From positions 1 through 23,906 of the IMG/VR virus record IMGVR_UViG_3300049491_000397: 23,906 bases of DNA; one strand, written 5' to 3'. Position numbers and translations under genes: made by a program. Of the stretch, positions 2,925 to 19,361 are shown in pieces; position 1 is the first letter of the stretch; every line of letters starts with the position of its first letter. The stretch comes from a virus. The notes beneath the pieces were generated by a model. It did no database searches, was not told the origin of the DNA, and saw only the letters and a list, made by a program, of their open reading frames with translations.

Positions 2925-5900
2925 TTAATAGCCATGCGCCACGGCGAGGATGTAGCCGTCGGCCGGCTGCCCCGCGTCATCGCGTCCGACGACCATAGGG
3001 CCGCCGGTGTAGAGATCCATCACCCGCACTTTCGTCATCGGATAGTCCTCATCGAGCACCGTGCACGTGAGGGCTTGGATTAAGAAAAACACCGGGACGC
3101 CGGTGCTGTAGAAGCAGAGAGCGTAGAGGCGCAGGCCGCCGATCGGGATATAGACCCGCGACAATTTCCTGGTCTTGTCCGGCAGGTCGTATTGGATATT
3201 GATCGAGGTGATGATCGCCTGGACGCTGCCGCCGATCGCCGTAATACGGAAATCATATTCATGGTGGCGGGGCGCCTTCACGCCGCCGAGCCAGGGGTAA
3301 TAGACGCCGGTGATCGGCGACCAGAACAGCGTGGGGTCCGTCGACCAGAACGGGGCCGCGTCGGTCGTCCAGAACTTCGCGCTCGCGTGGACCCGGTACT
3401 CGAGCAGGAGCCCTTGGTCGTTCGACGCGACGTTCACAAACATCGTCCCGCCGGCGATCGACACATACATGGGCGGGGTCTCGACGAAGCTATAGTGCAT
3501 TTCCTTCGACGAGCCGTTCCAGAAGAGGGCCGCGTCGGTGGTCCAAAACGGCGGGCTCCAGTTCGGGGTCCCGGTGTTTGTGTCGAGAGGGACGTGCCAA
3601 AATAAGCCGCCGCTACTGTCGGCGACGAGCTGGTTCGAGATCACCGTGCAGTTGGTCTTGGTGCCGCTGAACGTCGGGTGCTGCGGGCGGGTCAGCGTAA
3701 TGTTCCCGACGATCCGGTCGTCGACGTCGAGCGTCACCGACGCAAACCCGGTGCTCTCGTGGCCGGCGGTGTCGATCGCTTTCACCATGACGGTGCGCTG
3801 GGTGCCGTCCGGGACGACCGGGAGTTTATAGAGGGGCGTCGGCCATCGCGTGAGGGGGACCGCATCGGCCCAGATCGCTTGCGCGCCGGATCGCCATCGC
3901 AAATGGAACCCGCGCAGGTCGAGGGGCAGGTCGACCTCGTCTGCCGGGTTGTAGGCCCAATGCACCCCGTCGGCCTGTAGCTCGAGGACGTCCGGGTCTG
4001 GCGGCGGCGTGGTCTTCCCGATCACCGTGTAACTGTCGATGTTGATCCATCCGCTGAAGAGGCCCAGGTCTTCGGAAATCGAGCGGACCCGCACGTCGTA
4101 GTTCCGGCCATCGCGCACGTCGGGAATCGAGACGACGCTCCCGTTGCCGGAAATCGGGGCGTAGATTTGGACATAGTTTTGGGACGAGCCGGTCAACCGA
4201 TACTGGGCCTCGACCTTGCTCACCAATTCCTTGATCGCCGATCCGAAGTGCAGGGTGATTACGATCCGGCTGTGCAGGGTGCCGTCGAGGTCCTTCGTCA
4301 GGACCGCCTCGTCGGATTGGATCAACTCGACGATCGGGACCGGGATCACTTGTTGTGGCGTCGACGCGATGGTGATGTCGCTCTGGTAGGGCGGGATCAC
4401 CTCCTCGGCCGCGTCGAAAATTTCCGGCGCGTAATCCTGCAGGGTGACCGTGGCCGTGAAGTCCTGGCCCATTTCGATGTTCGTCACGATCCCGTCGATG
4501 CTGTCCTGCCCGGCGATGCCGATCGTCACGAGATCGCCGACGCCCGGCGAGCTCTGTTCGTGCATCCGCCAATAGCCCGAGGGCGCGTCGTTCATCACCG
4601 TCTCGTGGTAGCCGGACAGCTGGACCGCGGCGCCAGAGGTGGGGATGTATTGCGTCGGGGCGTAGCCCGGCTCGAGCTGGGCGCCCCACAAGTACAGCCC
4701 GGAGGAACCGTCGCCGTTGTAGGTGACGGAATTGGGCGCGGTCTGCATGATGAGGAGAATGTCCATCACCGGCGCGGCCCCGACGGTCCCGCAATAAATC
4801 CCGGTAATCGAGCAGCGATACGACCCGTTCGCCTCGGCCGTCATCGTGTGGTTCACCAGGACGCCGGTGCCGGACGTCGGGCGTTCCGTCATGAGCCCGG
4901 TGGACAGGTCGTATTCGACCCGGATCAATCCGAGCGTACCGATGCTGCCGTGGTTCATCTGCAAGCGGAGGATGCTGCGCTCGGCCGGCTTGGCGTAGAT
5001 CGAGAAGGTGTAAACCTCCCCGATCGGGATCGCCAGGTTGTTGATGTACATGTAGTGCGAATTCGCGGCGGTCAGGTCGTCGACCATCTTGTCCATCGTC
5101 GTGGTCCCGTTCGGGGCCATCGAGACGTTCAGGGTTTCCGTCGTCCGCGCGTTCAGCCACGTGCCGATCTGGCTCAAGTCTTCCGAATGCTTGAGCAGGT
5201 TCTGCCCGCGGGAACGGGATGCAGCCCAATGCCGGCCGATCTGCGCGGGCGTCAACACGAAGGGGTAATAGGCGACGTCGGTGAAGGCGGCCCCGCATCG
5301 GCCGACGGCCGTGGCGACGTTCTGCCGGCCGGTGATCATCGTCGTCGACGCCGGCAGCCCGGCGGCGTTCGCCCCCTGTGTTGCGAGGTAGTTGTTGATC
5401 GTCAGGGTGACGTTGGTGCCGTCGAAGGTGGCGACGCAATGGTTCCACATATCGGGGAGCATGTCCGCGGATCCGGCGTCCGCGAGCTTGCCCACCAGGA
5501 CGTTCGCCCATTCGACGGTGACGCCGAAGCGGCCGTTGGCGCCGGTTTGCTGGACCATCGTCTGCCAGCTGTTGCTGGCGTCGATGAACTTGCCGGTGTA
5601 GCGTTGCGTCGTCCCACCTTCCCCGACGAAGTTCGGCGCCTTGATCCATTGCTCGATCGTGAAGGCGCCCGCGGTGTCGGTGAATTTGAAATCGTTGACG
5701 CCGCCGAAGAGCAAATAGGCGCCGTTCGGGCCGTCGAGATAGGTGCCGGTCGTGGGATCCGCGACCGCTTGGTGGGGCCCATAGTCGCCGGTCCGGCAGG
5801 GGCCGTTGAACACGCCGTCTGTGCCGTTGCCGCTGTAGTCGGTGATCGCCGGGTAGAACGTCGCGATCGAGGGCTGGGGCGTGAGGATGTTCGTGCTGCC

Positions 5901-8507
5901 GGCAAAGATCGCGAGCGGGTAGAGGGTCTGCAATCCCTGGGCGGACTTCACGCGCATCGTGTAGAACTTGCCGCCGTCAAAGTCGACGAGCTCGTCGAGG
6001 GTGAGGCTCGAAATCACGGCGCTCACGCTCTGGGTCATCGCGATGATCCGGCCCTGGTCGACGCCGGCGAGGATCACGTCGTGCACCAGCTGCACCCGGT
6101 CTCCGCGCGTAAAGGTAATATTTTCCACGTCCATCTGGACCTGGTAATCCTGCGAGCGCCCGAGGGCCTCTTTGAGTTCCCGGCGTTTCAATCGGTAGAC
6201 TTGCCGGTCGCTCGTGACCCCGAGGCCGGCGTCGACCTCTTCAAAGATCGAGGCGTTCGATTGGGTGTAGCCGTCCGCGTAGACGGTGCGTTCGCCCTGC
6301 TCCCAATTGTTGGCCTCGTCCACGAAGCGGACCTTGAAGGCGTGGGGGATCTCGACGAATCGCTTGGTCCATTTGAAGCCCCAGGAATTGCGCGGGGTGA
6401 TCACATCCACCGGCGTCGGTTGGAGCTGCTCCATGATGAGGGAATATTTCATGTCGCGCATGGCGAAGGTGGCGCGGCCGGCCGACAGGATGTCCTGGCG
6501 GAGCTGGCGGACCGTGGTGCGGAAATCGATGACGGCGCTGAAGCCGTACCCTTGCAGCTCGCACTCGTCATAGAAGGCCTGCAGGGTCGGCAGATCCATG
6601 CGGACGTCGTCCTTCGGCTTCCGGTTCGACGTGCCCGTCATGAGGGAAAAGTAGACGCTCGCCGGGTTGTTCGTCGGGCCCGGCGTCCAATTCACGCCGT
6701 CCCACACCGGGAGGATGCTGGTCCCGACACAATTGAATTTGTCGATGATGCCGTTGAGCTGGTCCGTCGATTGGATCCGCATGCCGATCAGGGCGAGCCC
6801 GGCTTTCCGCACGGCCGTGCCCTGCTGGATCGACCGGAGCATGGTCCAGTAGGTCGTGTCCTGAATGATCAGGGTGCCATCGAATCCCGAGACGTAGGCG
6901 CTGGTTTTCATCACCCGGACGTCGTATTCGCCGGCCGGCACTCTGAAGCTGTGGTTGTAGCGCAGGGCGGAATCCGACAGGGCGGTGACGCTGAACAGGG
7001 GGACCGAATCGTCGCCGCCGCTGAGCTGATAGTCGGCGTTGACATAGACCTGCCCGCCGCGCGAGGCGGTCGTCGTGAGGGCGATCGTCCCGGTTCCGTT
7101 GTTCCCGCCGGCGTCCGCCACGGTGACCAGGGCGTTCGCCTGGGCGTTCGCCGCGATCCCGGCCTTGACGTCGTTCGCCGTCGTCACGCCCTGAATGATC
7201 CCGATCTGGATGCTGGGGACCGCGTAGTTCGACCGGGGCGACGGCAGGGGGACGTTCGGGCCGGCTTGAATAAACGGCGTCCATTGCAGGCCGGTCCGGG
7301 TCGAGAGGAGCTGCCGGTGCACGAACCGAATGTGCACGTTGTTGCCGGCGTGGCCGTAAGCCTTCGCGGTAAACACCAGGTCGTTGTTGGCGCCCGAGAA
7401 GGCGGTGGTTGCCGTGGCCTTCACGTCCGTCTTCGTCGTGCTCGTCCAGGCGCCGGGATCGCCGGCGAGCCGATACTCGACCGCCACTTCCCAGGTCCGG
7501 GCGCCGCGGTATTTCGCAATTTGTCGGCCGAGCCCCAGGGGCAGGGCCATGTCGAGGCTGATCTCGACGGTGTTCCGCTGGGTCCGTCGTTGAAACCAGA
7601 CCGTCGACGCACGCTGCCGGGTGGCCAGGAGAATGTTGAGCTGCTCCTCGAAGACATCTTGAGGCATCATCTTCAGGGCCGGGTCATTCGCGTGGCCGCT
7701 CAACACTTCGAGCGTGATGCCGGCGAAGGGGCCGTTCTTGATCGTGAGCGTGCCGTCCTCGAGGACCTCGTTCGCGTTCGTCGGATCGAGGGGCGTCTCG
7801 CCGATCTTCAGGTCGCTCAACTCCAGCGGACCGTAGCCGCAACAAAACACGAGCCGCAGGAATTGTTTGTTCCCTTTGATCTCGGTGAACGGCCGGGCGA
7901 CCAACGGGGGGAAGATCCGGTGTCGTCCGTAGATCCGGGGGATCGGGCCATAGGGGACGAACGCGTTGCTTGATCCGGTCAAGGAGAGCGTCGGGCTGGT
8001 GCTGCCGCTGTTCCCGGACAACTCCGGGAGCTGGGGCCGCGGGGGTGGAATCAAGGCGTTCACGGCGAGCATGCCGCCGATGCCCACGCCGGCGGTCAGC
8101 AAGGTCCCGGCGATCCCGCTGAAGAACACGACGGACGACGCCCCGGCGCCGAGCGCGGCGCCGATCGCCATCGCGGCCCAAGGGGCGGCGAAGGCTAAAG
8201 CCACGACGCCGAGCATGGCGACAATCTGCATCGTGCTCTTGCCGCCGCCGCCGCCGCCGCCGGTCCCCGGGATGCAGCGCATGACGACGGATTGTCCGGC
8301 GCGCGTGATCGTATATTCCCAGAGGGCGGACTCGACGAACCGGCCGTCAATCGACACCCGGGCGTGCATCGTCTTCGGGTCCCATCCGATCCGGCGCATG
8401 TGCTCCGAGACGGTGGACCCGGGGGGCAGGTAGCGGTCGATCCGCCCGCGCTCAATGAAGAGGCTGGGCAGGGCGATCAGTCTGATCGGGTTAGGTTCTG
8501 GCGTCAT
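2925..8507 (-). CDS. gpI/gpJ-like tail hub and central fibre with inserted glycan-binding modules
   Basis: This 1860-residue protein is the host-specificity hub of the tail. Residues 1-80 are a small ubiquitin-like domain, followed by a glycine run at 83-89, a hydrophobic region at 93-153 and PYGPIPRIYGRHRI at 185-198. That arrangement matches a lambda gpI-like part fused to gpJ. The hub core follows (GNKQFLRLVFCCGYGPLELS, later GDRVQLVHDV). From about residue 870 to 1318 it is interrupted by a LamG-like domain (FTIEQWIKAPNF, MWNHCVATFDGTNVTLTIN) and a carbohydrate-binding-like domain (YTFSIYAKPAERS, LYLWGAQLEPGYAPTQYIPT). The hub resumes with GDLVTIG and LQDYAPEIFDAAEEVIPPY, then FN3-like domains. 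FW repeats lie at about 1650-1667 and 1709-1732. The start has GGGAG nine bases upstream. Confidence 0.88.
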   Translation of the reverse strand: MTPEPNPIRLIALPSLFIERGRIDRYLPPGSTVSEHMRRIGWDPKTMHARVSIDGRFVESALWEYTITRAGQSVVMRCIPGTGGGGGGGKSTMQIVAMLGVVALAFAAPWAAMAIGAALGAGASSVVFFSGIAGTLLTAGVGIGGMLAVNALIPPPRPQLPELSGNSGSTSPTLSLTGSSNAFVPYGPIPRIYGRHRIFPPLVARPFTEIKGNKQFLRLVFCCGYGPLELSDLKIGETPLDPTNANEVLEDGTLTIKNGPFAGITLEVLSGHANDPALKMMPQDVFEEQLNILLATRQRASTVWFQRRTQRNTVEISLDMALPLGLGRQIAKYRGARTWEVAVEYRLAGDPGAWTSTTKTDVKATATTAFSGANNDLVFTAKAYGHAGNNVHIRFVHRQLLSTRTGLQWTPFIQAGPNVPLPSPRSNYAVPSIQIGIIQGVTTANDVKAGIAANAQANALVTVADAGGNNGTGTIALTTTASRGGQVYVNADYQLSGGDDSVPLFSVTALSDSALRYNHSFRVPAGEYDVRVMKTSAYVSGFDGTLIIQDTTYWTMLRSIQQGTAVRKAGLALIGMRIQSTDQLNGIIDKFNCVGTSILPVWDGVNWTPGPTNNPASVYFSLMTGTSNRKPKDDVRMDLPTLQAFYDECELQGYGFSAVIDFRTTVRQLRQDILSAGRATFAMRDMKYSLIMEQLQPTPVDVITPRNSWGFKWTKRFVEIPHAFKVRFVDEANNWEQGERTVYADGYTQSNASIFEEVDAGLGVTSDRQVYRLKRRELKEALGRSQDYQVQMDVENITFTRGDRVQLVHDVILAGVDQGRIIAMTQSVSAVISSLTLDELVDFDGGKFYTMRVKSAQGLQTLYPLAIFAGSTNILTPQPSIATFYPAITDYSGNGTDGVFNGPCRTGDYGPHQAVADPTTGTYLDGPNGAYLLFGGVNDFKFTDTAGAFTIEQWIKAPNFVGEGGTTQRYTGKFIDASNSWQTMVQQTGANGRFGVTVEWANVLVGKLADAGSADMLPDMWNHCVATFDGTNVTLTINNYLATQGANAAGLPASTTMITGRQNVATAVGRCGAAFTDVAYYPFVLTPAQIGRHWAASRSRGQNLLKHSEDLSQIGTWLNARTTETLNVSMAPNGTTTMDKMVDDLTAANSHYMYINNLAIPIGEVYTFSIYAKPAERSILRLQMNHGSIGTLGLIRVEYDLSTGLMTERPTSGTGVLVNHTMTAEANGSYRCSITGIYCGTVGAAPVMDILLIMQTAPNSVTYNGDGSSGLYLWGAQLEPGYAPTQYIPTSGAAVQLSGYHETVMNDAPSGYWRMHEQSSPGVGDLVTIGIAGQDSIDGIVTNIEMGQDFTATVTLQDYAPEIFDAAEEVIPPYQSDITIASTPQQVIPVPIVELIQSDEAVLTKDLDGTLHSRIVITLHFGSAIKELVSKVEAQYRLTGSSQNYVQIYAPISGNGSVVSIPDVRDGRNYDVRVRSISEDLGLFSGWINIDSYTVIGKTTPPPDPDVLELQADGVHWAYNPADEVDLPLDLRGFHLRWRSGAQAIWADAVPLTRWPTPLYKLPVVPDGTQRTVMVKAIDTAGHESTGFASVTLDVDDRIVGNITLTRPQHPTFSGTKTNCTVISNQLVADSSGGLFWHVPLDTNTGTPNWSPPFWTTDAALFWNGSSKEMHYSFVETPPMYVSIAGGTMFVNVASNDQGLLLEYRVHASAKFWTTDAAPFWSTDPTLFWSPITGVYYPWLGGVKAPRHHEYDFRITAIGGSVQAIITSINIQYDLPDKTRKLSRVYIPIGGLRLYALCFYSTGVPVFFLIQALTCTVLDEDYPMTKVRVMDLYTGGPMVVGRDDAGQPADGYILAVAHGY

Positions 8508-9750: not shown

Positions 9751-12300
9751 CTATCCTCCTGCTTTCGGACTCAGCTTGAAGCGCCCGGACATGGCGCCGT
9801 CGACGTCGCCGCTCGCGATCGCCTGGCGCGTCGCGTCTCGAATCGTGATGTAGAGCTGCCGGGCGCCGTTCGCCCCCATGCCGGCCGAGGTCTTCACGTC
9901 GGCCTTGGCGTAGTTGTTCACGATCACGTTGACGTCGGGGCTCGTCACGGTGATCGGGGTCTCGGTCGGTCTCGTCGCGCGGTCCTCCATGCGCTTGATC
10001 TCGTGGACGTCGCCGCGGGAGAGGACGATCTCGCCGGGCGTCAACATCGCCGGGACCGTGTCCCGGTTGCCGGTGCCCAACACGGGACCGCCGCGGAGGA
10101 AATGCCGGGGGATCATCGGGATCCCGCCGCCGGTCTTGGCGAACACCGAGGGGCCGCCGAAATCGGACCCGCCGCCGGCGAGCTGGGTGCCGGCCGGGAC
10201 GGTGCCGCCGGTGTTCGCAAAGGCGAGCGCCGCCGTGGCGATCGCTTTGGCCGCGGCCATCGCGGCGAGCTGGGCGATGATCTGCCCCACCATGAGCTTG
10301 ACGAAATCGAGGAGGCTCCGCATGACGTCCTTGAAGCTCTTAATCTTGCCGTTCAGGAAATCGTCGAAAAACCGAGCAAAGAAACTTTCCATGGTCTGCA
10401 CCATCCGGCGGGCGATGTCGGCGCCGAGCCCGAAGCCGGACTTCGTGTCGTCCACGTAGCGTTTCATCCCTTTCGCCCACCCGGCGAACACGTCATCCGA
10501 GGCCCGCTCGTTGGCTTCCCCGAGGGCCGTGAGGGATTGCAGCTCGATCGCTTTCTTCGCCTCCTGGGTCATGCTGGTCCGGGTGAGGATCAACTCCGCG
10601 AGCTGGTCCTCGTGGCGCGCCCAATGCTGCAGGAGCTCCCGCGATTCCTCGAGCGTCAGGTCGGTTTGTTTCGCCAGGTTCGCCACCAGCAGGTCGGTTT
10701 CATGGGCATAGCGTTGCGCCGTCGACGCGCCGATCTGGACGTCGTAATTCAGCCGGGCCTGGGCCAGCGCGATCGCCTCGGATTGCCGGGTCTCCCGGTC
10801 CGCCTTAATCGCCGCGGCGCCGGCAAACAGCAGGTCGAGCTGTTGCTTCGCCGTTTGGTTCTGGGCCTCCTGGACCTGGGCTTCGCCTTCGAGCTTCGCG
10901 TTCGTGATTTGCTGGGCGAGCACCAGCCCCTGCTGGGTCAGGTCCGCGACGCGCTTCTGATGATCGGCCTCGATCTTCTGGCGCTCGGTGGCCGTGCCGC
11001 CAAACTTGGCGAGCTGTTCCTTGTGGCCCTGGTCTTCGAGGATGAGCTGGCGTTGCACGTAGCCGGCGGCGGATTCGAGTTCCTGCTGCTTGATCCGGGC
11101 CCGGTCTTCGGCCGCGCGGACGAGCGACGACTGCCCGGCCTGCTCCGCGTTGTCCGCCAGGATCTGCTGGCGCGCGAACCCGAGCTTGGACAGCTCGAGC
11201 TCGTTTTTGATCGCCTGCTCTTTCGCCGCAAACTGGGCCTTGAATTGTTCGATGTCTGCTTTCGCCGGGCCCTGACTGATTTTCTTTTTCTTCGCCGGCT
11301 GCTCGCTCGCGGGCGGAAACGGTTTCACGATCTCGATCGGGACGATCCCTTCGGCGGCCTTGACCTTCATCTCCTCAGCCATCTTGGCGATCCGGTCCAT
11401 CCGGGCGCCCAGTTCCTTGGCCTTCTCTTCGCTGAAAATGTCGAGGATGTTGCTGGCCAGGACGATGATCTGGGCGTTCACCGTGGCGACGCTGATAAAG
11501 AAATCCTTAAAGGCGAACACCAGGCCGCGGATAAAAATGCCGGCGGCCTTCGCGCCTTCGCCCACGCCCATCTCTTTCAGGACGCCGAGGAATTCGTTCA
11601 TGACCGGGATCAGCTCTTTGCCGATCGCGATCGTCATCCCTTTCACGCCGGCCTCGAGGGTCTTCAGCTCGTCGTTGAACTTCTCCGCGGCCTTCGCGTC
11701 CTGCTCCGACATCACGAGCCCGAGGCGCCCGGCCTCGGCCATGAGGGCCTTGATCCCATCCTTGCCCTGGTTCAGGAAGGGGATGAGCTCGAGCCCGGCC
11801 TTGCCGAAGAGCTTGACCGCCGCTTCGGTTTTGCCGGCGTCGTCTTCGGCCGCGGCGAAGGCGGCCGCGACATCGAGGAGGACGTCCTCGGTCGGTCGCA
11901 TCTGTCCGGCGGTGGTGAGGGCGGTGACGCCGAGGCGGCGAAACACGGCCTCACCGTCGCCGACGCCGCGCGCCGCGTCCGTCATGTTTTGGGACAAAAA
12001 CTTCAGGCCCTTGGCGAGCTGGGCATGTTCCACGTCGGCGAGCTTCGCGGCGAACTGCAGCCCGGCCAAGGCCTTGATGTTCACGCCGACCTTCTGGCTG
12101 GTCTTCAGGAGCTCGTCGCCATAGTTGGCCGTACTCTTCGCAATCCCGAAGAGGATCGTGCCGGCGCCGGCGAGCTGGACCCGCCAATCCTTGATGAAGC
12201 TGCCGAAGGATCCGAGGGCGCTCTGCTGTTTCTTGAGCTCGGCATTGAACTGGTCCGCGACCAGTTTCAGCACGAGGGCGAGTTCCCGGTTGTCTACCAT
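9751..12300 (-). CDS. Tape measure protein
   Basis: This 849-residue protein (about the same as lambda gpH, 853) sets tail length. It opens with a helical part containing ALGSFGSFIKDWRVQLAGAG, a hydrophobic pair of segments near residues 250-290, a long charged coiled coil at about 340-560 (rich in Ala, Gln, Glu and Lys), and a conserved C-terminal region. That region has RRMVQTMESFFARFFDDFLNG near residue 635, then a long Ala-rich hydrophobic helix at about 660-694, typical of the lambda-type tape measure C-terminus. The last 120 residues are Gly-rich and beta-like (PRHFLRGGPVLGTGNRDTVP, MLTPGEIVLS). The start overlaps the previous stop as TAATG. The next gene's AGGAGG overlaps its stop. Confidence 0.9.
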   Translation of the reverse strand: MVDNRELALVLKLVADQFNAELKKQQSALGSFGSFIKDWRVQLAGAGTILFGIAKSTANYGDELLKTSQKVGVNIKALAGLQFAAKLADVEHAQLAKGLKFLSQNMTDAARGVGDGEAVFRRLGVTALTTAGQMRPTEDVLLDVAAAFAAAEDDAGKTEAAVKLFGKAGLELIPFLNQGKDGIKALMAEAGRLGLVMSEQDAKAAEKFNDELKTLEAGVKGMTIAIGKELIPVMNEFLGVLKEMGVGEGAKAAGIFIRGLVFAFKDFFISVATVNAQIIVLASNILDIFSEEKAKELGARMDRIAKMAEEMKVKAAEGIVPIEIVKPFPPASEQPAKKKKISQGPAKADIEQFKAQFAAKEQAIKNELELSKLGFARQQILADNAEQAGQSSLVRAAEDRARIKQQELESAAGYVQRQLILEDQGHKEQLAKFGGTATERQKIEADHQKRVADLTQQGLVLAQQITNAKLEGEAQVQEAQNQTAKQQLDLLFAGAAAIKADRETRQSEAIALAQARLNYDVQIGASTAQRYAHETDLLVANLAKQTDLTLEESRELLQHWARHEDQLAELILTRTSMTQEAKKAIELQSLTALGEANERASDDVFAGWAKGMKRYVDDTKSGFGLGADIARRMVQTMESFFARFFDDFLNGKIKSFKDVMRSLLDFVKLMVGQIIAQLAAMAAAKAIATAALAFANTGGTVPAGTQLAGGGSDFGGPSVFAKTGGGIPMIPRHFLRGGPVLGTGNRDTVPAMLTPGEIVLSRGDVHEIKRMEDRATRPTETPITVTSPDVNVIVNNYAKADVKTSAGMGANGARQLYITIRDATRQAIASGDVDGAMSGRFKLSPKAGG

Positions 12301-13385
12301 TATTGCACCCCTACAATGTCTCGGGCGTGTGGTTGTGCGCTATCGAGGAGGACGCCCCGGGGGCAGGCGCCGACGTGTCCGGATCCGGCCGGCAGGAGGC
12401 AGCTCACCCACTGGGTCCCGGGCATCCGTCCGTAGATCGCCTGGGCGCTCGGGGTGGCCCCGCTGATGCCGGTCGAGTAAATAAAATCAACGAGATAGAC
12501 GGTGTAGACGATCGGCTGGGCCGTGTCGGTTTCGCTCGCCTGCCCGATCGCCTTCCGCTTCCGGCTCCCGATCGGCTGGGCCAGGTCGGTTTCCGTCGCC
12601 TGATTCACGGTGACGGTGTGCCCGAGGCCGCTCTTGATCGCCGTCATGGGCTGGGCCAGGTCGGTCTCTGCCCCCAGGCCGAGGAGTTTCGCCTTGGCGT
12701 GGGTCAGCGCCTGGGCCAGGTCGGTTTCGCTCGCCTGGGTCAAAGCACGGCGTTTCTGGGGGGTGATCGGCTGGGCCAGGTCGGTCTCCGCCGGCTGCCC
12801 GATCGCCCGGGTCTTCAGGGACGTGATCGGCTGGGCCAGGTCCGTCTCCGTCACCTGGCCGACGGCGACGGTGTGGCCGCCGCCCGTCAGGATCGCGGTC
12901 ATGGGCTGGGCGGTGTCGGTCTCGGTGGTCTGCCCGAGGAGCTGGGTCTTCCGGGACGTCAGGGCCTGGGCCGTGTCCGTCTCCGCCGTCTGGTTCACGA
13001 GCCGGCGCTTCGGGTTGTTCGTAATCGCCTGGGCCAGATCGGTTTCCGTGGTCTGCCCGACGAGCCGGCGCTTCGGGTTGTTCGTGATCGCCTGGGCGAG
13101 ATCGGTTTCTGTGGTCTGGTTCACCAGCCGGCGCTTCGGCGCCCACGCGATCGGTTGCGCGAGGTCCGTCTCGGTCGTCTGTCCGATCGCCTTCGTCTTC
13201 CGGTGCGTGATCGGCTGGGCGAGCTCGGTCTCGGTGGCCTGGTTGATGAGCCGGCGTTTGGGGTTCCACGCGATGGGCTGGGCGGTGTCGGTTTCGCTCG
13301 CCTGCCCGACGGCGACGGTCTGCGCCCCGGACACCGGCGGATCGAGGTCTTCGTCAAACCATCGCTGGATGATCAGGCTATTCAT
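12300..13385 (-). CDS. Tandem-repeat protein (ETDxAQ repeats)
   Basis: This 361-residue protein consists largely of about 13 consecutive units of roughly 20 residues with the core (G/N)Q-x-x-ETD-x-AQ-(P/A)-(I/L/M), followed by a basic segment such as KRRL or KTKA. A short N-terminal leader precedes (MNSLIIQRWFDEDLDPP), and a non-repeat C-terminal part of about 70 residues follows (VYTVYLVDFIYSTG...). Acidic and basic blocks alternate, so the units may form a fibre-like solenoid. Repeats of this type occur in environmental and actinobacterial phage structural proteins, in my recollection, with no known role. It lies just before the tape measure gene, to which it is coupled by TAATG. Function is unknown; a virion or fibre component is the best guess. 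Confidence 0.7.
   Translation of the reverse strand: MNSLIIQRWFDEDLDPPVSGAQTVAVGQASETDTAQPIAWNPKRRLINQATETELAQPITHRKTKAIGQTTETDLAQPIAWAPKRRLVNQTTETDLAQAITNNPKRRLVGQTTETDLAQAITNNPKRRLVNQTAETDTAQALTSRKTQLLGQTTETDTAQPMTAILTGGGHTVAVGQVTETDLAQPITSLKTRAIGQPAETDLAQPITPQKRRALTQASETDLAQALTHAKAKLLGLGAETDLAQPMTAIKSGLGHTVTVNQATETDLAQPIGSRKRKAIGQASETDTAQPIVYTVYLVDFIYSTGISGATPSAQAIYGRMPGTQWVSCLLPAGSGHVGACPRGVLLDSAQPHARDIVGVQ
12510..13319 (-). repeat. About 13 tandem copies of a 60-base coding repeat
   Basis: The repeat array encodes the ETDxAQ units. DNA copies share runs such as CTGGGCCAGGTCGGT on the plus strand. Most units are about 60 bases, while two are longer (about 75 bases) and carry a GxGHTV linker. 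The units at about 13000-13130 are nearly identical in DNA, which suggests recent duplication. Confidence 0.8.
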
Positions 13386-14119
13386 GCGAAGGCCTCACGC
13401 ATCCAGGCGGCGCTGGTCAGGTCCGGCCATTGGCCTTCGTCGTCTTCGTGGGTCACGATCGGGGGGACCCGCTCGGGGTGGTTCAGCGGGATCCGGTAGA
13501 AGGCCGCGACCGACGCCCAGAGCTGGTCCCCGGTGTCGATCACGCTAAAGGTCGTCTCGATCGTCTGGATGGCATCGATGTCCCGCATCGCGACGCTGAG
13601 CCCGGGGTTCGAGAGGCCTGGGTCGGTAGCCGAAACCACGAAGGCGACCTCGTTGAATCCCTTGCTCCAACTCCGTCCGTCGTTCGCGGCGTCGGCCGAA
13701 TCGGACGCGCAAATCGCGAGGGCGACGGTCTGCGGGTAGGTCGTCGACGCGGTGGTCCCGGTCGAGAGGGAGGTGACGGCGCTCACGCCAGAATCGGCCT
13801 CCTGGGCCACATCGAAGACGCGCCCTTCCTGAATCGCGCCGACCCAGGCCGAGGCCTTTTGCGTCGTGGTCCATTGCCATTGGACGCTGGTCTCGGTGCC
13901 GTCGCTGTATTTGTAGGCCCAGGCGCCCGAGACGTTCGTGGAAGTGTAGTTATGGATCAGGGTCCATCCGCTGGGCGTCGTGATCGTGCTCGAGTCCTTG
14001 TCGATCGCAATGGCCGTGACGAGCACCGTTCCTCGTGGAACAATCCCGAAGTTCACGGTCAAGCTCGTCACCGTGACGTCGTTCGAATCGGCCGGGATGT
14101 TGCGGATCAACGTGGACAT
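13382..14119 (-). CDS. Beta-rich presumed virion protein
   Basis: This 245-residue protein begins MSTLIRNIPADSNDVTVTSL. Its Thr/Ser-rich strands (VLVTAIAIDKDSSTITTPSG, WTLIHNYTSTNVSGAWAYKY, TASTTYPQTVALAICASDSA) look like a jelly-roll or Ig-like surface domain. Similar stretches, with PSGWTLI followed by a YK(Y/V)-type strand, are frequent in phage and bacterial surface proteins. The C-terminal 50 residues (YRIPLNHPERVPPIVTHEDD, WPDLTSAAWMREAFA) appear separate and may be a linker or docking part. The ATG directly follows the previous TAG, and its own stop overlaps the repeat-protein start as ATGA. No specific function is assigned. Confidence 0.6.
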   Translation of the reverse strand: MSTLIRNIPADSNDVTVTSLTVNFGIVPRGTVLVTAIAIDKDSSTITTPSGWTLIHNYTSTNVSGAWAYKYSDGTETSVQWQWTTTQKASAWVGAIQEGRVFDVAQEADSGVSAVTSLSTGTTASTTYPQTVALAICASDSADAANDGRSWSKGFNEVAFVVSATDPGLSNPGLSVAMRDIDAIQTIETTFSVIDTGDQLWASVAAFYRIPLNHPERVPPIVTHEDDEGQWPDLTSAAWMREAFA

Positions 14120-14563
14120 CTAGAGGCCTCTCGCGATCGTCGCGCCCTGCACCTGAACGTGGATGTGGATCCGGTCGATCGGTGCCTGATGGATGACGGT
14201 GTGCGGGTCCCGGTAATTCACTTCATAGAGGTAGCCGGCCTCGAGGTGGACCGCCTCCTGGCTGTCGGGCCAGCACATGAGGATCCGTGGGTCGGTAATG
14301 AGGGGGAGCTGAAACCGGCGCTCATCGCGCGCGCCAAACATCGGGGCGTCCGTGTGGACCGGAATGCCTTGGTAGGCCGGAAGCTTTCGGCAGAGGATGC
14401 GCACGGCTGTCCCTCCTAGCTGTAGCGAAGCGACGAAGCCCGCGAGCCACGGAGGGGACGAGATCCACCCGTTGGTCCCGCCGCTGTCGACAAAGGGTGC
14501 CGACAGAACGGCCTCGCGCGCGGCCCGGATGTCGACCGCCCGGATCTTCCACCAGCAGGCCAT
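14120..14563 (-). CDS. Asp/Asn beta-hydroxylase-like 2-oxoglutarate Fe(II) oxygenase
   Basis: This 147-residue protein is shaped like the catalytic domain of the aspartyl/asparaginyl beta-hydroxylase family. It has HTD at 70-72, RRFQLPLITDP at 82-92, and GYLYEVNYRDPHTVIH at 110-125, followed by DRIHIHV at 130-136. The expected Fe(II) ligands would be His70, Asp72 and His121, with Arg131 as the 2-oxoglutarate-binding residue. Such enzymes hydroxylate side chains using 2-oxoglutarate and oxygen. The start at 14563 lies two bases after the preceding stop; the frame is open further upstream but that part overlaps the preceding gene. Why a tail operon should hold it is unknown: a virion protein could be the substrate, or the fold could be reused structurally. 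Confidence 0.7.
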   Translation of the reverse strand: MACWWKIRAVDIRAAREAVLSAPFVDSGGTNGWISSPPWLAGFVASLQLGGTAVRILCRKLPAYQGIPVHTDAPMFGARDERRFQLPLITDPRILMCWPDSQEAVHLEAGYLYEVNYRDPHTVIHQAPIDRIHIHVQVQGATIARGL

Positions 14564-14565
14564 GA

Positions 14566-15105
14566 TTAGCTCAGGGCGATCTGCTTCAAGTCGTCGAGCG
14601 TCGCCGCGGCGTCGATGCGCGGGTCGTTCATCGTGTCTCGGATGGTTTGCCGCTCGGCCTCGATCGCCTCCGCGTCGGCGGTCTTGCCCTGGGCGGTGGC
14701 GCCGGTCCATTTGCCGTCGAGGATGAGCAGCTGTTCGATGCCTTGGTGGCGAAGCAGTTCCTTGTGGAGGACCCGGGCCTTCTCCATGTTGTGCTCGATC
14801 TTGCCGCCGACGTCCTCGAGCGCGTTCCGGTGGGCCCGGTTCTCGTCGAACATACGGTGCTCGGCATCGGACAGCCGGCGCCAGCTCACCATCGCTGGGT
14901 CTCCCATGCGGGCCCAGTAGCGGGTGATTCGGGACAATTCGAATTCGATGTTGGCGTCCGTGTCCTCGCGCGCCCACAGGCCGGCCTTCGCGTCGACCGG
15001 CAGCCATCCGCCCTGGGGCTGGCGCGGGAATCGCCCGGTGAGCTGCATGGCGACATGGGCGACGGATCCGTCGGCTCGACTCACTCCGAGATAGATTTCG
15101 GCCAT
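14566..15105 (-). CDS. Helical protein of unknown function next to fibre gene
   Basis: This 179-residue protein opens with a short beta part, MAEIYLGVSRADGSVAHVAM, then QLTGRFPRQPQGGWLPVDAK, and then becomes strongly helical and charged from about residue 50 to the end (SDAEHRMFDENRAHRNALED, MEKARVLHKELLRHQGI, EAIEAERQTIRDTMNDP). The helical part could form a coiled coil. It starts two bases after the fibre-like gene stop and ends two bases before the hydroxylase-like gene. A fibre-assembly helper is conceivable because of position, but no known chaperone family was recognised. Confidence 0.6.
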   Translation of the reverse strand: MAEIYLGVSRADGSVAHVAMQLTGRFPRQPQGGWLPVDAKAGLWAREDTDANIEFELSRITRYWARMGDPAMVSWRRLSDAEHRMFDENRAHRNALEDVGGKIEHNMEKARVLHKELLRHQGIEQLLILDGKWTGATAQGKTADAEAIEAERQTIRDTMNDPRIDAAATLDDLKQIALS

Positions 15106-15107
15106 GG

Positions 15108-15905
15108 TTATTGGTCCCCGAAGCAGGCCCAGAAGTAGTTCTGCGGGTCCTGCGCCACAAATGTGATTGCCGTCTGGTCGTAGCTTTCAATCTCGAACAC
15201 GCCGGCCGTCGGGGAGGCGTTCCGGATCGCGTGGTCTTCGACGCCGGTGGCGGTGAGCGCCGTGACCGTCCGCTCGAGGCTGGCGACGACCGAGTAGTTC
15301 GCGCTGGAGAAATCGGTCCCGATATTCACACCCAAGCGTCCGGTCCCGGTGTCGGTGACGCTCGTCGTGTTCCAATTCACGGTGAGGGAGGTGCCGGCGC
15401 CGACCGCCTTGCCCCAGCATTTACAGGCGCCCGGGTGCCAGTTGAATCCCTGGGGCGTCACATATTTATCGGTAGCGGTGCCCGCTTCCATCTCGGCTTG
15501 CGTGGCGGCGTTGCCCACCGAGGGGTAGACGCCGCCGTTCAAGTCGTAGTGAATCCAGACGCCGCTCTGGGTCAGGACCAACGATTCCCCGGCCAGCAAG
15601 ATCACTTTCGCCAGGGTCTCCACGTTGGTGCCGTCGGTATGTTCCACCGTGACGGTGCAGGGCGTCGACGCGTGGTTGTTGTAGATGTTGACGTGCTTGA
15701 CGTTCCGCCGCCGGTTCGAGGTCGTGCAGTCCAGGATCGTCGTCGTCGTGGCCGTCGTGATCGAGGCCGTGTTGGTGCGGACGATGTCCTGGACCACCGG
15801 CGGGGTGGCGTTGTCCGCCTCCATCGCCGACACATGGACTTCGATGTCGGCCGTGGCGCTCGTGACCAAGCGCAGAATGTCGGCCGTGGCTCGCAGGATC
15901 AGCAT
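15108..15905 (-). CDS. Tail fibre-like beta-rich protein
   Basis: This 265-residue protein starts behind AAGGGAG, seven bases upstream, which overlaps the previous stop. The N-terminal half has Thr-rich strands (NTASITTATTTTILDC) and a jelly-roll-like piece NVKHVNIYNNHASTPCTVTV followed by LLAGESLVLTQSGVWIHYD. The middle contains NAATQAEMEAGTATDKYVTP, a linker typical of phage tail fibre and receptor-binding proteins ahead of their tip domain. The C-terminal domain, about 110 residues, has strands ending FWACFGDQ. This makes a fibre or adhesin subunit likely. The exact role in the particle is unknown. Confidence 0.62.
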   Translation of the reverse strand: MLILRATADILRLVTSATADIEVHVSAMEADNATPPVVQDIVRTNTASITTATTTTILDCTTSNRRRNVKHVNIYNNHASTPCTVTVEHTDGTNVETLAKVILLAGESLVLTQSGVWIHYDLNGGVYPSVGNAATQAEMEAGTATDKYVTPQGFNWHPGACKCWGKAVGAGTSLTVNWNTTSVTDTGTGRLGVNIGTDFSSANYSVVASLERTVTALTATGVEDHAIRNASPTAGVFEIESYDQTAITFVAQDPQNYFWACFGDQ

Positions 15906-15917
15906 GGCTCGGCTCCC

Positions 15918-16391
15918 TTATGAGGCCCGGAAGAATCCGGCGGCCGCAATCTGGGCGGTGATGTCGCTGCCGTCCGGGGTCACCACGAAATCGTGCATGG
16001 TGCAGGGGACGACGTTGGCGTCGGTGCCGCCGGTCGTGTCGTTGTCGTAAGCGATAACCAGGTCGTTCCACCCGTCGCCGGCGGCGACCGCAGTCCAGGT
16101 CTGGTCCGGGATGTCGAGATCCACGCGGTCGTTCGCGTCGTCCGGTGCAAAGGCGGTGAGGTCCGCGTCGGTCAGGGTCTTCCGGGCATAGCCGGAATTC
16201 GTGACCTCGTTCGTCGTGCCGGCCACGAGGGCGGTGACCGTGTCGACGTCCCGGAGGGTGGCGTCGGATTCAATCCCGGCCGTGGCCAGAATCAACACAA
16301 TGAAGGCGGAATTCGCCGGGTCGTTGCCGTCGATGCGGACATAGAATTCCGCCACGCGGCCCTTGGCGATGTTAAAGACCTGATCGGCCAT
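15918..16391 (-). CDS. Presumed virion protein of unknown function
   Basis: This 157-residue protein begins MADQVFNIAKGRVAEFYVRI and has an acidic, beta-rich make-up with few basic residues. Segments include SAFIVLILATAGIES, YARKTLTDADLTAFAPDD, DIPDQTWTAVAAGDGWNDLVI and PCTMHDFVVTPDGSDITAQ. Proteins of this style recur in environmental phage tail regions, to my recollection, without an assigned role. The start lies three bases after the previous stop. There is no signal peptide or catalytic motif. It probably contributes to the virion, but this rests on context only. Confidence 0.6.
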   Translation of the reverse strand: MADQVFNIAKGRVAEFYVRIDGNDPANSAFIVLILATAGIESDATLRDVDTVTALVAGTTNEVTNSGYARKTLTDADLTAFAPDDANDRVDLDIPDQTWTAVAAGDGWNDLVIAYDNDTTGGTDANVVPCTMHDFVVTPDGSDITAQIAAAGFFRAS

Positions 16392-16394
16392 GGG

Positions 16395-16781
16395 TTACAC
16401 CTTCCCCTTCTGGACGGAAAACTTGGCATGGTCTGCCTCGTCCAAGACGCAATCAAAATAATGAATGACTTCATAACCGGGATCGTCGGCAGTGGGGATG
16501 CTCGTCGGGTATTTCCCGGGCCCGCGCAGGACCGAGTAATGGAGGGCGCCGTTCGTGCCCTTGAGAATCAGCTGGGCCTTGCCGGCCTCGTCCTTGGTCA
16601 TCTCCATCCAGCCCTCCTGCAGGCCGCGCAACACCAGGCGATCGCTGAAGTGCTGGTCTCGGGAATGCCCGGTGTGCTTCACTTCGACGCCGGTGCACGG
16701 CGGCGGGTTGATGCAATCGCCGGCGGCGTTCACTTCCTTGACCCAGCCCGCGGGGGTGGCATAGATCCGTTTGAGTAACAT
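16395..16781 (-). CDS. Protein of unknown function in tail island
   Basis: This 128-residue protein starts MLLKRIYATPAGWVKEVNAAGDC behind AGAGGAGGCGCCC, one of the strongest ribosome binding sites in the window. It contains a Cys-containing loop CINPPPCTG, then a mixed alpha/beta part with LVLRGLQEGWMEMTKDEAG, AQLILKG and ALHYSVLRGPGKYP, and ends HAKFSVQKGKV. No family was recognised. The arrangement beside other small beta-rich genes suggests an accessory virion protein. It is separated by 28 bases from the lipoprotein stop and by three bases from the next start. Confidence 0.6.
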   Translation of the reverse strand: MLLKRIYATPAGWVKEVNAAGDCINPPPCTGVEVKHTGHSRDQHFSDRLVLRGLQEGWMEMTKDEAGKAQLILKGTNGALHYSVLRGPGKYPTSIPTADDPGYEVIHYFDCVLDEADHAKFSVQKGKV

Positions 16782-16809
16782 GGGCGCCTCCTCTTTCCGT
16801 TGATCGTCG

Positions 16810-17241
16810 TTAGCTCAGGACCTTCCCGGCGCGGTTGCTCCGCGTGGGGCTCGGGGTGCCGTCTCCGTTCACGGCGTCGAGCTCGTAGCACACTTCTGAA
16901 CCCGGGACCGCCGGCACGGTGTTGTCGACATACTGGTTCGCCACATGGCCGTCGGCGTCGAGCTGGACCGCCGCCTGCTCGGGAGGATTGAACGGGTCCT
17001 CCAATGCCGGCAGCGGATCGGGCACGCCGCACACATCGATCCCGCGGTAGATGCGAATCGCGGCGAAGCCGGGCATCGGCTCGTAGGGGGACCACTCAAT
17101 GGTCAGGTGCGTCATCGCCGGGACCGGAACGGGGGCCGGCGCCGGTGGGGCGTTCGGGTCCTGCTGGCATCCCACGACATAGGCGAGGATCGGCCACATG
17201 GCGAGGAAAACGACGAGCGCGGTTTGGCTGTATCTGCTCAT
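16810..17241 (-). CDS. Predicted lipoprotein with a FN3-like domain
   Basis: This 143-residue protein starts at the ATG overlapping the previous stop (ATGA). Its N-terminus, MSRYSQTALVVFLAMWPIL, then AYVVGC at residues 20-25, is a signal peptide ending in a lipobox with Cys25 as the lipidated residue. A Pro/Ala-rich linker follows to about residue 42, and then a domain of about 100 residues with strands HLTIEWSPYEPMPGFAAIRIYRG near the start and SEVCYELDAVNGDGTPSP near the end, which is fibronectin type III-like. Such a protein would be membrane-anchored on the periplasmic side. It lies in a tail operon, where a lipoprotein is unexpected. Superinfection exclusion or an adsorption-related role is possible; neither is shown by the sequence. 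Confidence 0.75.
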   Translation of the reverse strand: MSRYSQTALVVFLAMWPILAYVVGCQQDPNAPPAPAPVPVPAMTHLTIEWSPYEPMPGFAAIRIYRGIDVCGVPDPLPALEDPFNPPEQAAVQLDADGHVANQYVDNTVPAVPGSEVCYELDAVNGDGTPSPTRSNRAGKVLS

Positions 17242-17657
17242 GTGACCTTGTTCAAATTTCGGACGGGGAGATCGATCTCTTGCTTCAGGGCCTTGCTCCC
17301 CGAGTAGCTGATCTCGATCAGGAGCCGGTGCCATTCCAGATCGTTCGTCGCGTTCAGGATCGTGTTATCGGCGGCGGCCAGGAGCAGCGTCAGGAGGCCG
17401 GTCGTCGCGTGGATCGTGCCCTGGTTGGCGTTCTTGATGTTCACGTGGTCCACGGCGTTGACGATCGGCAGGGTCGCTTCGTCGCGCGCGTAGATGGTCA
17501 ACGTCGCCGTCCCGATCGCGGCCAAGGGAACCGGGGCGCCGACTTCGTCGAGCAGCGTCAGGGTGATGAGGGGCCCGGAGGATTTCTCCGGGACGATCAC
17601 CTGGCGGCCGGCCGCGTCTTTCAGGATCACCCGGTTTTCAATGACGAGCAGGGCCAT
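17238..17657 (-). CDS. Beta-rich presumed virion protein of unknown function
   Basis: This 139-residue protein is the first gene after the chaperone pair. It begins MALLVIENRVILKDAAGRQV and continues with alternating strands, including PLITLTLLDEVGAPVPL, TATLTIYARD and TGLLTLLLAAADNTIL. It ends EISYSGSKALKQEIDLPVRNL. The pattern of a Gly-x-x-V-x-L turn followed by a strand T(A/L)T(L/I) resembles N-terminal Ig-like domains of baseplate upper proteins (BppU_N) and similar accessory virion proteins, but the likeness is general. The start has TGAGGA, which includes the previous stop. Its own stop overlaps the next start as ATGA. Function is not known. Confidence 0.6.
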   Translation of the reverse strand: MALLVIENRVILKDAAGRQVIVPEKSSGPLITLTLLDEVGAPVPLAAIGTATLTIYARDEATLPIVNAVDHVNIKNANQGTIHATTGLLTLLLAAADNTILNATNDLEWHRLLIEISYSGSKALKQEIDLPVRNLNKVT

Positions 17658-17663
17658 AGGTCC

Positions 17664-18406
17664 TCAGTTCGGGCATGTGCGACAGGCCTGGGCGAGGCCG
17701 TCGCCAAAGTAGGCCGTGCACTCGGGGAGACAACTTTTTCCGCAAAACTCGCCGATCTGCTGGTCCCGCTTTGTCCGTTTGCCGGGTGTCACAAGCCATG
17801 GGAGCTCAATGCCAAACCATCCGAGGATGGCCTGGTCGACGGTTCGTTTTTCGAGGCATCGCTGGAGGTACGGATCTGAATCAGCGGGGCCCCACTCGGT
17901 GAGGATGGTGCGGACCCGGGTAAGGTCTCCGTCGCTAAGGGCGACAAGGCTCCGCTCGACCCACTGTCCGTAGGTGAGGGGGACGGTTTGCCTTCGCTGG
18001 CCTCCCACTGCTGCCTGAGCTGTTTTCCCGTCAACAACATCACCAGCTGCTTCGGTGGATTGCAGAGAAAAAAACGCATGCAAAACAGGGCGACCTCCTC
18101 TCCGGTCACCGTCCATGAGAATTCTTGCGCGCGGGCCTGGATCTCGATCCAGGGTTTCTTCGCGAGGTCTCGGCTCGTCTCGCCGGCCGCCGACAGGCAG
18201 ATCGCCATGAAGAGCGGGCCGCGGTCTCGGCCGATGTCGTGGATCGCCGGGTAGTCGATCGCGGTCAAATCCATCCCATTGAAGATGTGCTCGCCGAGCC
18301 ACTTGCATTGCTGCCACAGCAAGGGCTCGAGCGTGTAGGGCTTGCCGTCGACGATGAGCCGGCGCAGGCTCTCGATGTCCTGCCCCGGCGTGTCTGTCTG
18401 TTCCAT
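17664..18406 (-). CDS. Tail assembly chaperone, gpGT-like -1 frameshift product
   Basis: A -1 shift out of the frame starting at 18406 enters the frame that ends at 17664. A slip at GGGAAAA (18023-18029) would give a 247-residue fusion: 128 shared residues, then 119 residues beginning TAQAAVGGQRRQTVP. The second-frame part looks like a real domain, with YGQWVERSLVALSDGDLTRV and WFGIELPWLV, and ends in a cysteine cluster of the form C-x3-C-x3-C-x11-C-x2-C. It has no convincing start of its own; the first ATG in that frame (18317) is internal to the G region and has no ribosome binding site. In lambda the GT fusion joins the tube and the tape measure during assembly. The TGA stop is within TGAGGA, the Shine-Dalgarno of the next gene. 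Confidence 0.78.
17789..18406 (-). CDS. Tail assembly chaperone, gpG-like (zero-frame product)
   Basis: This 205-residue zero-frame product is the counterpart of lambda gpG, which coats the tape measure during tail assembly. The start at 18406 (MEQTDTPGQDIESL) is chosen because TAAGAGGAGACGC precedes it; the longer frame to 18460 lies inside the tail tube gene. Residues 1 to about 128 look folded, with helices such as LEPLLWQQCKWLGEHIFNG and PLFMAICLSAAGETSRDLA. After the GGGAAAA site at residues 127-128 the zero frame turns into low-complexity Ser/Pro-rich sequence and ends at 17789. It sits directly after the tail tube gene. Frame and position fit well; the chaperone role is taken from gene order and the frameshift. 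Confidence 0.75.
   Translation of the reverse strand: MEQTDTPGQDIESLRRLIVDGKPYTLEPLLWQQCKWLGEHIFNGMDLTAIDYPAIHDIGRDRGPLFMAICLSAAGETSRDLAKKPWIEIQARAQEFSWTVTGEEVALFCMRFFLCNPPKQLVMLLTGKQLRQQWEASEGKPSPSPTDSGSSGALSPLATETLPGSAPSSPSGAPLIQIRTSSDASKNEPSTRPSSDGLALSSHGL
18023..18029 (-). promoter_or_regulatory. Candidate -1 slippery heptamer GGGAAAA
   Basis: The minus strand reads ACG GGA AAA CAG in the chaperone frame, so the heptamer G GGA AAA has the X XXY YYZ phase needed for a -1 slip. The lambda G-T site is GGGAAAG, one base different. The shift leads straight into the GT-like frame. This is the preferred site. Confidence 0.75.
18068..18074 (-). promoter_or_regulatory. Second candidate -1 slippery heptamer TTTTTTT
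   Basis: The minus strand reads CGT TTT TTT CTC in the chaperone frame. The seven T residues form T TTT TTT in the correct phase for a -1 slip into the same downstream frame, 45 bases upstream of GGGAAAA. It could be a second or alternative site. Confidence 0.45.
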
Positions 18407-18416
18407 GCGTCTCCTC

Positions 18417-19361
18417 TTAGGTGTACGCGATGCTAATTTCATCGTTCCCGCCGGCTGCATTCCTCGGGAGGTTGAAGTCGGCCGTCACCGTGGCCAGGCC
18501 GTTCCGATCGCTTTCGCTGATCTTGGCGAACTGGCAGACCGGCGCGCTTACGATGCAGATGTTGCCGGCGGATCCGGTGTGGCGGAAGGTCAGGACGCCG
18601 GTCGTGCCGGCGACCCAGCGGCCGTAAAAATCGAACGTGGCCACGAGCTCGAGCTCGGGATCGACGCTGCCCTTCGGGTCCCGTCCGGTGAGGAGCGTAC
18701 TGATGAAGCCTTCCGCCTTGTTGATGTCCGCGCGGGGTTCGAGTTTGTTACCCATGTCAAAGCTGACCTGGCTGGCGAAGGCGGAAAAGGCCGCGATGCT
18801 GAAGGTCGCATTGAGCAGGGGAATCGGCACGGTCGTCTCCACGCCGGAGGGCGTGATCAGGGCCACGTCGCTCACGCCGTCGTAGACGCCCACGAATTCA
18901 AATTCCCACATGCCTGGCTCGCCGTTCTTGGCGCTGTATTTCACATTGCCGCGGGCGCCGCGGATCTGTTCCTTGACGCCGTCCCGGTAGACCGCAATGG
19001 TCAGGGAAGGAATCAAGGCGAGGCTGGACTCGGGCGTGTAGGTGACGCTCGTCACGGCGACGACCGTCTCGGTGAACCCGCAGGCCCGCAGGAGCTTGCC
19101 GAAGGCCGGCGCGGTCCCGGCGGTGCCGGACCCCTTGTTCTCGACCTTGAAGTTGATCTTGCCCAGCTTGGTGCCGGGGATGGCCTTGAACCGGGAGAGG
19201 GAGACGTCGAGAATGTCCCGGTCGAACATCGAAATGTCCGCCTCAAACTTGGGCTCCATGATCTGAAAGCTGGCGTCGGCGCCGGCCAGGGCAATGGCGG
19301 TGCCCTCTGTCACTTCGACTTTCGCGGCCACGACCGTTCGATTGCTCAGAATTCTGCCCAT
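18417..19361 (-). CDS. Major tail tube protein
   Basis: This 314-residue protein probably forms the tail tube, the counterpart of lambda gpV. It has the expected length range, sits directly before the G/GT-type chaperone pair, and is dominated by beta strands. Segments consistent with the family are the N-terminal VVAAKVEVTEGTAIAL with FEADISMFDRD, the central LGKINFKVENKGSGTAGTAP followed by FGKLLRACGF, and YTPESSLALIPSLTIAVYRDG. The motif GKLLRACGF after a Gly/Ala/Pro turn is a common marker of phage tail tube proteins. The start has AGGAGG 8 bases upstream. Its TAA stop is part of the Shine-Dalgarno region TAAGAGGAG of the chaperone gene. Confidence 0.85.
   Translation of the reverse strand: MGRILSNRTVVAAKVEVTEGTAIALAGADASFQIMEPKFEADISMFDRDILDVSLSRFKAIPGTKLGKINFKVENKGSGTAGTAPAFGKLLRACGFTETVVAVTSVTYTPESSLALIPSLTIAVYRDGVKEQIRGARGNVKYSAKNGEPGMWEFEFVGVYDGVSDVALITPSGVETTVPIPLLNATFSIAAFSAFASQVSFDMGNKLEPRADINKAEGFISTLLTGRDPKGSVDPELELVATFDFYGRWVAGTTGVLTFRHTGSAGNICIVSAPVCQFAKISESDRNGLATVTADFNLPRNAAGGNDEISIAYT

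Follow-up and report, generated by a model that had tools for sequence, protein, structure and literature searches.

A conserved T_TTT_TTT heptamer as the probable -1 frameshift site of a G/GT tail assembly chaperone gene in a Nitrospira-linked phage family

The tail assembly chaperone gene examined here is very probably a G/GT gene whose decoding involves programmed -1 ribosomal frameshifting of the lambda type, with T_TTT_TTT (hereafter T7; 18074-18068, minus strand) as the shift site. It lies in an IMG/VR virus record (IMGVR_UViG_3300049491_000397), and the whole stretch of 23,906 nucleotides that was analysed is called the window. Most ribosomes would stay in the zero frame and yield G, a protein of 205 aa with a Ser/Pro-rich tail at its end, and a minority would slip back one base at the T run, two tRNA-Phe re-pairing from UUU to UUU, to produce a GT protein of 247 aa in which G residues 1-113 are followed by the T part. 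If the roles are those known from lambda, the tape measure protein would be coated by G, and the tail tube protein would be recruited by the T part of GT. The slip may be helped by an upstream GGAGGT and a small downstream hairpin.

Reading frames and slippery heptamers in the window

The frame arrangement is directly observed. The zero-frame G-like gene spans 17789..18406 on the minus strand (ATG 18406-18404, preceded by AGGAG), has relatives in 17 other contigs and gives a confident helical model, and the T-like extension (17664..18074, minus strand) runs in the -1 frame from FFSLQST to CRTCPN, with its stop at 17666-17664. An earlier note on this DNA had placed two slippery heptamers in the zero frame of the G-like gene, both directed to the same -1 frame and with the T run upstream, and its coordinates and frames proved right: counted on the minus strand in the ORF from ATG 18406, TTTTTTT (codons CGT TTT TTT) and GGGAAAA (18029-18023; codons ACG GGA AAA) are both in X_XXY_YYZ phase, the -1 frame common to them is open to 17664, and the T run lies 5' of GGGAAAA in the mRNA.

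No homopolymer of at least 7 bases other than T7 occurs in the window, and the 23 other genes (7,129 codons) contain a single zero-frame heptamer with A or T as Y, where about 3-4 would be expected by synonymous resampling. Neither heptamer is compelling from the window sequence alone, because a six-T run at the place of T7 has a probability of about 0.048 given the amino acids, and GGGAAA at its own place one of about 0.049.

Relatives and their comparison

The comparison set comprised 18 distinct sequences including the window, the 17 relatives being IMG/VR contigs and Nitrospirota genomes, with near-identical copies removed. Searches with the G part retrieved viral contigs, and those with the T part one Nitrospira MAG (JAFEBI010000007.1); more distant members came from a profile search of 395 genomes of the phylum of that MAG, and a wider T profile gave further viral contigs. 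One sequence, L053, was retrieved through the T C-terminus only, its G having no clear similarity to the other Gs. Four further hits (L032, L037, L038 and L039) did not have the gene arrangement and were treated as chance profile matches. Among the contigs and genomes searched there was no near-identical relative of the window, and tblastn against a collection of named phages returned no match to the G or T of the window, nor to the T of L051 or L053. The host of the phage is probably a Nitrospira-type bacterium.

Conservation of the T run

The conservation of the six-T run and of the -1 frame is directly observed. T_TTT_TTN stands at the corresponding codons in 18/18 sequences, N being T in 10, C in six and G in two, and the amino acids encoded there vary (HFF, RFF, DFF, DFL, NFL) while the heptamer stays. 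The preceding codon has T in its third position, be it a codon for His, Arg, Asp or Asn; L036 and L053 have Leu in place of the second Phe and still keep the six T. The persistence of T6 across amino-acid changes therefore points to selection acting on the nucleotides of the run, not merely on the Phe-Phe pair. The chance of the T run in nine contigs, computed from the codon usage of each contig and assuming independence, is about 10^-7, shared ancestry making the true chance larger. At the level of sequence comparison, it is this conservation that settles the T run as real.

In all 17 relatives, as in the window, the slippery zero-frame heptamer leads to a conserved protein domain with invariant cysteines encoded in the -1 frame, and a pseudogene or indel error is very unlikely because the -1 product is of this kind. 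A -1 frame stop is found immediately before the T run in L031 and L036, so that T can be entered there only at the run or later. As T_TTT_TTN occurs in 17/17 relatives and GGGAAAA in 0/17, we infer that T7 is the main and ancestral shift site, which reverses the ranking of the earlier note, where T7 came second, as a possible weaker site behind GGGAAAA.

GGGAAAA and other explanations

The lambda G-T fusion depends on a shift at GGGAAAG, and the GGGAAAA of the window (18023..18029, minus strand) is a lambda-like look-alike, taken for the main site until the relatives were compared. It is in phase in the window only; at its place the relatives have AGC GGG AAA, GAG GGG AAG, CCG GGC CGC or similar codons, none of which forms an in-phase heptamer, and the gene family has no conserved shift site of the lambda type GGGAAAR. 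GGGAAAA is thus most likely incidental, at most a minor extra shift site, and may add slight slippage.

Joint use of the two heptamers, with GGGAAAA as a real second site raising total GT, appears rather unlikely. GGGAAAA is in phase and has the same target frame as T7, shift-prone heptamers are scarce in the rest of the window, as counted above, and G_GGA_AAA has features of the classes that are shift-prone in E. coli (PMC4066793). On the other hand, it is present in none of the relatives and has a probability of about 0.05 given the amino acids, the sequence upstream of it pairs weakly with the anti-SD (-3.5 kcal/mol), the fold downstream of it is unremarkable, and nothing points to selection for the use of both sites. 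According to the sequence, a shift at GGGAAAA would give a GT of the same length as the shift at T7, with a different 13-residue junction: LCNPPKQLVMLLT would be retained in the GGGAAAA product, as against SLQSTEAAGDVVD in the T7 product, and the fusion peptide would run through RFF-SLQSTEAAGDVVDGK after a T7 shift and through NPPKQLVMLLTGK-TAQ after a GGGAAAA shift. That both sites are used and generate two GT isoforms, each of 247 aa and differing only in this junction, is a doubtful proposition; if true, the fusion made at GGGAAAA would still contain the final, conserved portion of the G fold, and the second site would represent a recently gained tuning of the G:GT dose and of the GT type. 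The reading of GGGAAAA as the main site and T7 as a weaker accessory, suggested by its resemblance to the lambda-type heptamer and by the use of GGGAAAG in TP901-1 (PMC4493119), is very improbable in view of the distribution of the two heptamers among the relatives.

Slippage of RNA polymerase on the T run, which the earlier note had also proposed as a source of mixed mRNAs, would fuse G to T through a one-base insertion and with no ribosomal slippage. The depletion of TTTTTTT in all E. coli frames, possibly caused by slippage or indels (PMC4066793), lends some weight to this idea, but the heptamer phase of the run is kept in every case and eight sequences have only six T (T6C in six and T6G in two); these runs are shorter than the A/T runs of about nine on which bacterial cases are documented (PMC5009743), and for this reason transcriptional slippage is very unlikely. 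It is hardly probable that T is made from a start codon of its own in the -1 frame and not fused to G: the window does offer candidate -1 starts, among them GTG (+66) and TTG (-9), but none is conserved, the -1 frame of L002, L004 and L010 is free of ATG, GTG and TTG as far as +120, and the conservation of the T run would go unexplained. A sequencing error or disabling indel, with one T missing from the run and G and T in truth forming a single ORF, can practically be dismissed, since homopolymers are error-prone in principle but 18 distinct sequences, drawn from many assemblies and in several cases with T6C or T6G, show the same frame relation.

Candidate stimulators of the shift

Ribosomal frameshifting at the T run, the explanation that we favor, could be assisted by two nearby elements. 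The first is an internal Shine-Dalgarno-like GGAGGT (18093..18098, minus strand), located upstream of the T run at 18 nt in the window and the eight relatives closest to it, and at 9 nt in L031 and L051. At the 18-nt spacing its computed anti-SD pairing is about -11 to -13 kcal/mol, and of the codons in the single-coding part that precedes the T run, those bearing GGAGGT rank with the best conserved at the synonymous level. Shine-Dalgarno stimulation of -1 frameshifting has its optimum 9-14 nt upstream of the site (PMC5009743), and because the known stimulation needs this distance the 18-nt spacing is marginal; GGAGGT may have a role as frameshift helper. GGAGGT was also considered as an initiation site and rejected, as no conserved start codon follows it.

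The second element is a weak, bulged hairpin of 7 bp (18039..18060, minus strand), obtained with RNAalifold from nine sequences and starting 7 nt after the T run. In this hairpin 88.9% of the cells are paired and two pairs show a compensatory change, with 19/500 shuffles as good, and the window sequence taken alone has an unremarkable fold downstream of the T run (z -0.8). A strong downstream hairpin common to the sequences was searched for by single-sequence folding and rejected (z from -1.9 to +1.7), the weak shared hairpin being all that emerged from folding without pseudoknots. Clear hairpins do occur in certain distant relatives: L031 (z -3.4), L051 (z -2.7) and L048 (-21.6 kcal/mol, z -1.8).

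With respect to the ranges of stimulated sites (Shine-Dalgarno at 9-14 nt and/or a structure at 4-10 nt), L031 and L051 have both elements, with the stable hairpin 6-8 nt downstream of T7, and L048 and L050 have the hairpin only, in the window GGAGGT being at 18 nt and the weak hairpin at 7 nt. The helpers thus differ by lineage at the same T run, from a Shine-Dalgarno-like motif at 9 nt plus hairpin to a strong hairpin with no such motif, and it appears from these sequences that the slip site is fixed and the helpers variable. A search of Rfam around the shift site gave no match. What counts against the T run as the explanation is that in E. coli U_UUU_UUU was less prone to shifting than A_AAA_AAG (PMC5009743), together with the 18-nt distance of GGAGGT, the weakness of the hairpin and the absence of a match to a curated chaperone family.

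Gene order and protein evidence

The gene order, like the frames, is directly observed. The tail tube (major tail) protein gene (18417..19361, minus strand; Pfam Phage_tube_2 above cut-off, PHROG 290) lies directly upstream of G and is the same neighbor in the relatives, and the tape measure protein gene (9751..12300, minus strand; PHROG 8462 with E 6e-42, and others) is found about 5.4 kb from T in the window and directly after T in L031, L040 and L041. Five relatives (L031, L035, L036, L040 and L041) have tail tube, G and T in this order, followed by the tape measure gene or a long tape-measure-like ORF. The pair therefore occupies the place expected of G/GT genes, with the tail tube gene ahead of it and the tape measure gene beyond it, and the earlier identification of a G/GT-type -1 frameshift gene is borne out by the adjoining tail tube gene and by the conservation of the T-like domain in the -1 frame.

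The interval between T and the tape measure gene in the window (12300-17657) holds about nine genes, some of them tail-fibre-like (15108-15905 corresponds to PHROG 11355). One gene in it (12300-13385), for which Pfam gave no match, is made up of a degenerate repeat unit about 21 codons long ([QT]xTETDLAQPI...), and a similar repeat protein is encoded in L016. Elsewhere in the window, 2925-8507 encodes a tail tip (J-like) protein of 1,860 aa; the Laminin_G_3 domain in its interior may be an insertion that binds sugars.

The G and T of the window had no match in PHROG, Pfam or NCBIfam, and PDB sequence profiles searched with both returned nothing relevant. The structure model of G is helical and confident (pLDDT 88.6); compared with the PDB, it gave a single chain with Z of at least 2, the HK97 tail assembly chaperone 2ob9 (Z 3.1, a weak though suggestive match), and Foldseek against the PDB and BFVD gave no match at E <= 0.001. 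The AlphaFold model of T (pLDDT 64) was too poor for a structure search. Protein homology links the family to the chaperones only indirectly, through L053, which matches PHROG 313 "Tail assembly chaperone" with its G and Pfam Phage_TAC_18 with its T; this sequence has T_TTT_TTG near the end of G and shares only the T C-terminus with the window family. L053 carries overlapping A_AAT_TTT and T_TTT_TTG heptamers (3683-3692) at the very end of its PHROG 313 G, and thus combines a related T C-terminus with another kind of G.

The end of the T-like domain (17664-17790 in the window) has almost invariant cysteines (FCG..C..EC...FG..L...C.TCP), a pattern that looks like a metal site. Such a cysteine motif is not known to have a role in GT.

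Comparison with known systems and significance

In the light of the sites assigned to P2 (TTTTTTG), SPP1 (UUUUUUC) and TP901-1 and lambda (GGGAAAG), the window gene would work like P2, SPP1 and lambda GT. In P2 the -1 shift that gives E+E' takes place at TTTTTTG with no strong downstream structure (PMC3091744), and the window shares with it the T_TTT_TTN site, the position of the pair between the tail tube and tape measure genes and the lack of a strong downstream structure; however, no sequence relation was found and the zero-frame product of the window runs about 94 codons past the site. A putative -1 frameshift in SPP1 17.5/17.5* was assigned to UUUUUUC (PMC6316719), a heptamer of the same type in the same functional pair of tail chaperones, although the host group is another and no homology was found, the phage collection giving no match. 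The likeness to lambda G/GT and TP901-1 lies in the -1 fusion of G-like and T-like domains and in their assumed roles on the tape measure and tail tube (PMC5009743; PMC4493119), whereas GGGAAAG is close to the end of G in those phages and the conserved T run of the window is about 94 codons before it. The cassette of E. coli dnaX (Shine-Dalgarno, heptamer and hairpin) is resembled by L031 and L051, in which T7 stands between a GGAGGT at 9 nt and a stable hairpin; in the window the Shine-Dalgarno-like motif is at 18 nt, the hairpin is weak, and the shift would make a longer, not a shorter, protein.

The gene is a member of a new, unannotated family of the known G/GT frameshift system, which is thereby extended to a Nitrospira-linked phage family unnamed in the family libraries used. 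The succession of a tail tube gene, T_TTT_TTN and a -1 ORF ending in C..TCP provides an anchor for the annotation of such genes. With one fixed slip site, Shine-Dalgarno-like spacings of 18 vs. 9 nt and varied hairpins, the family also constitutes a natural series in which the needs of bacterial -1 frameshifting for stimulators could be tested.
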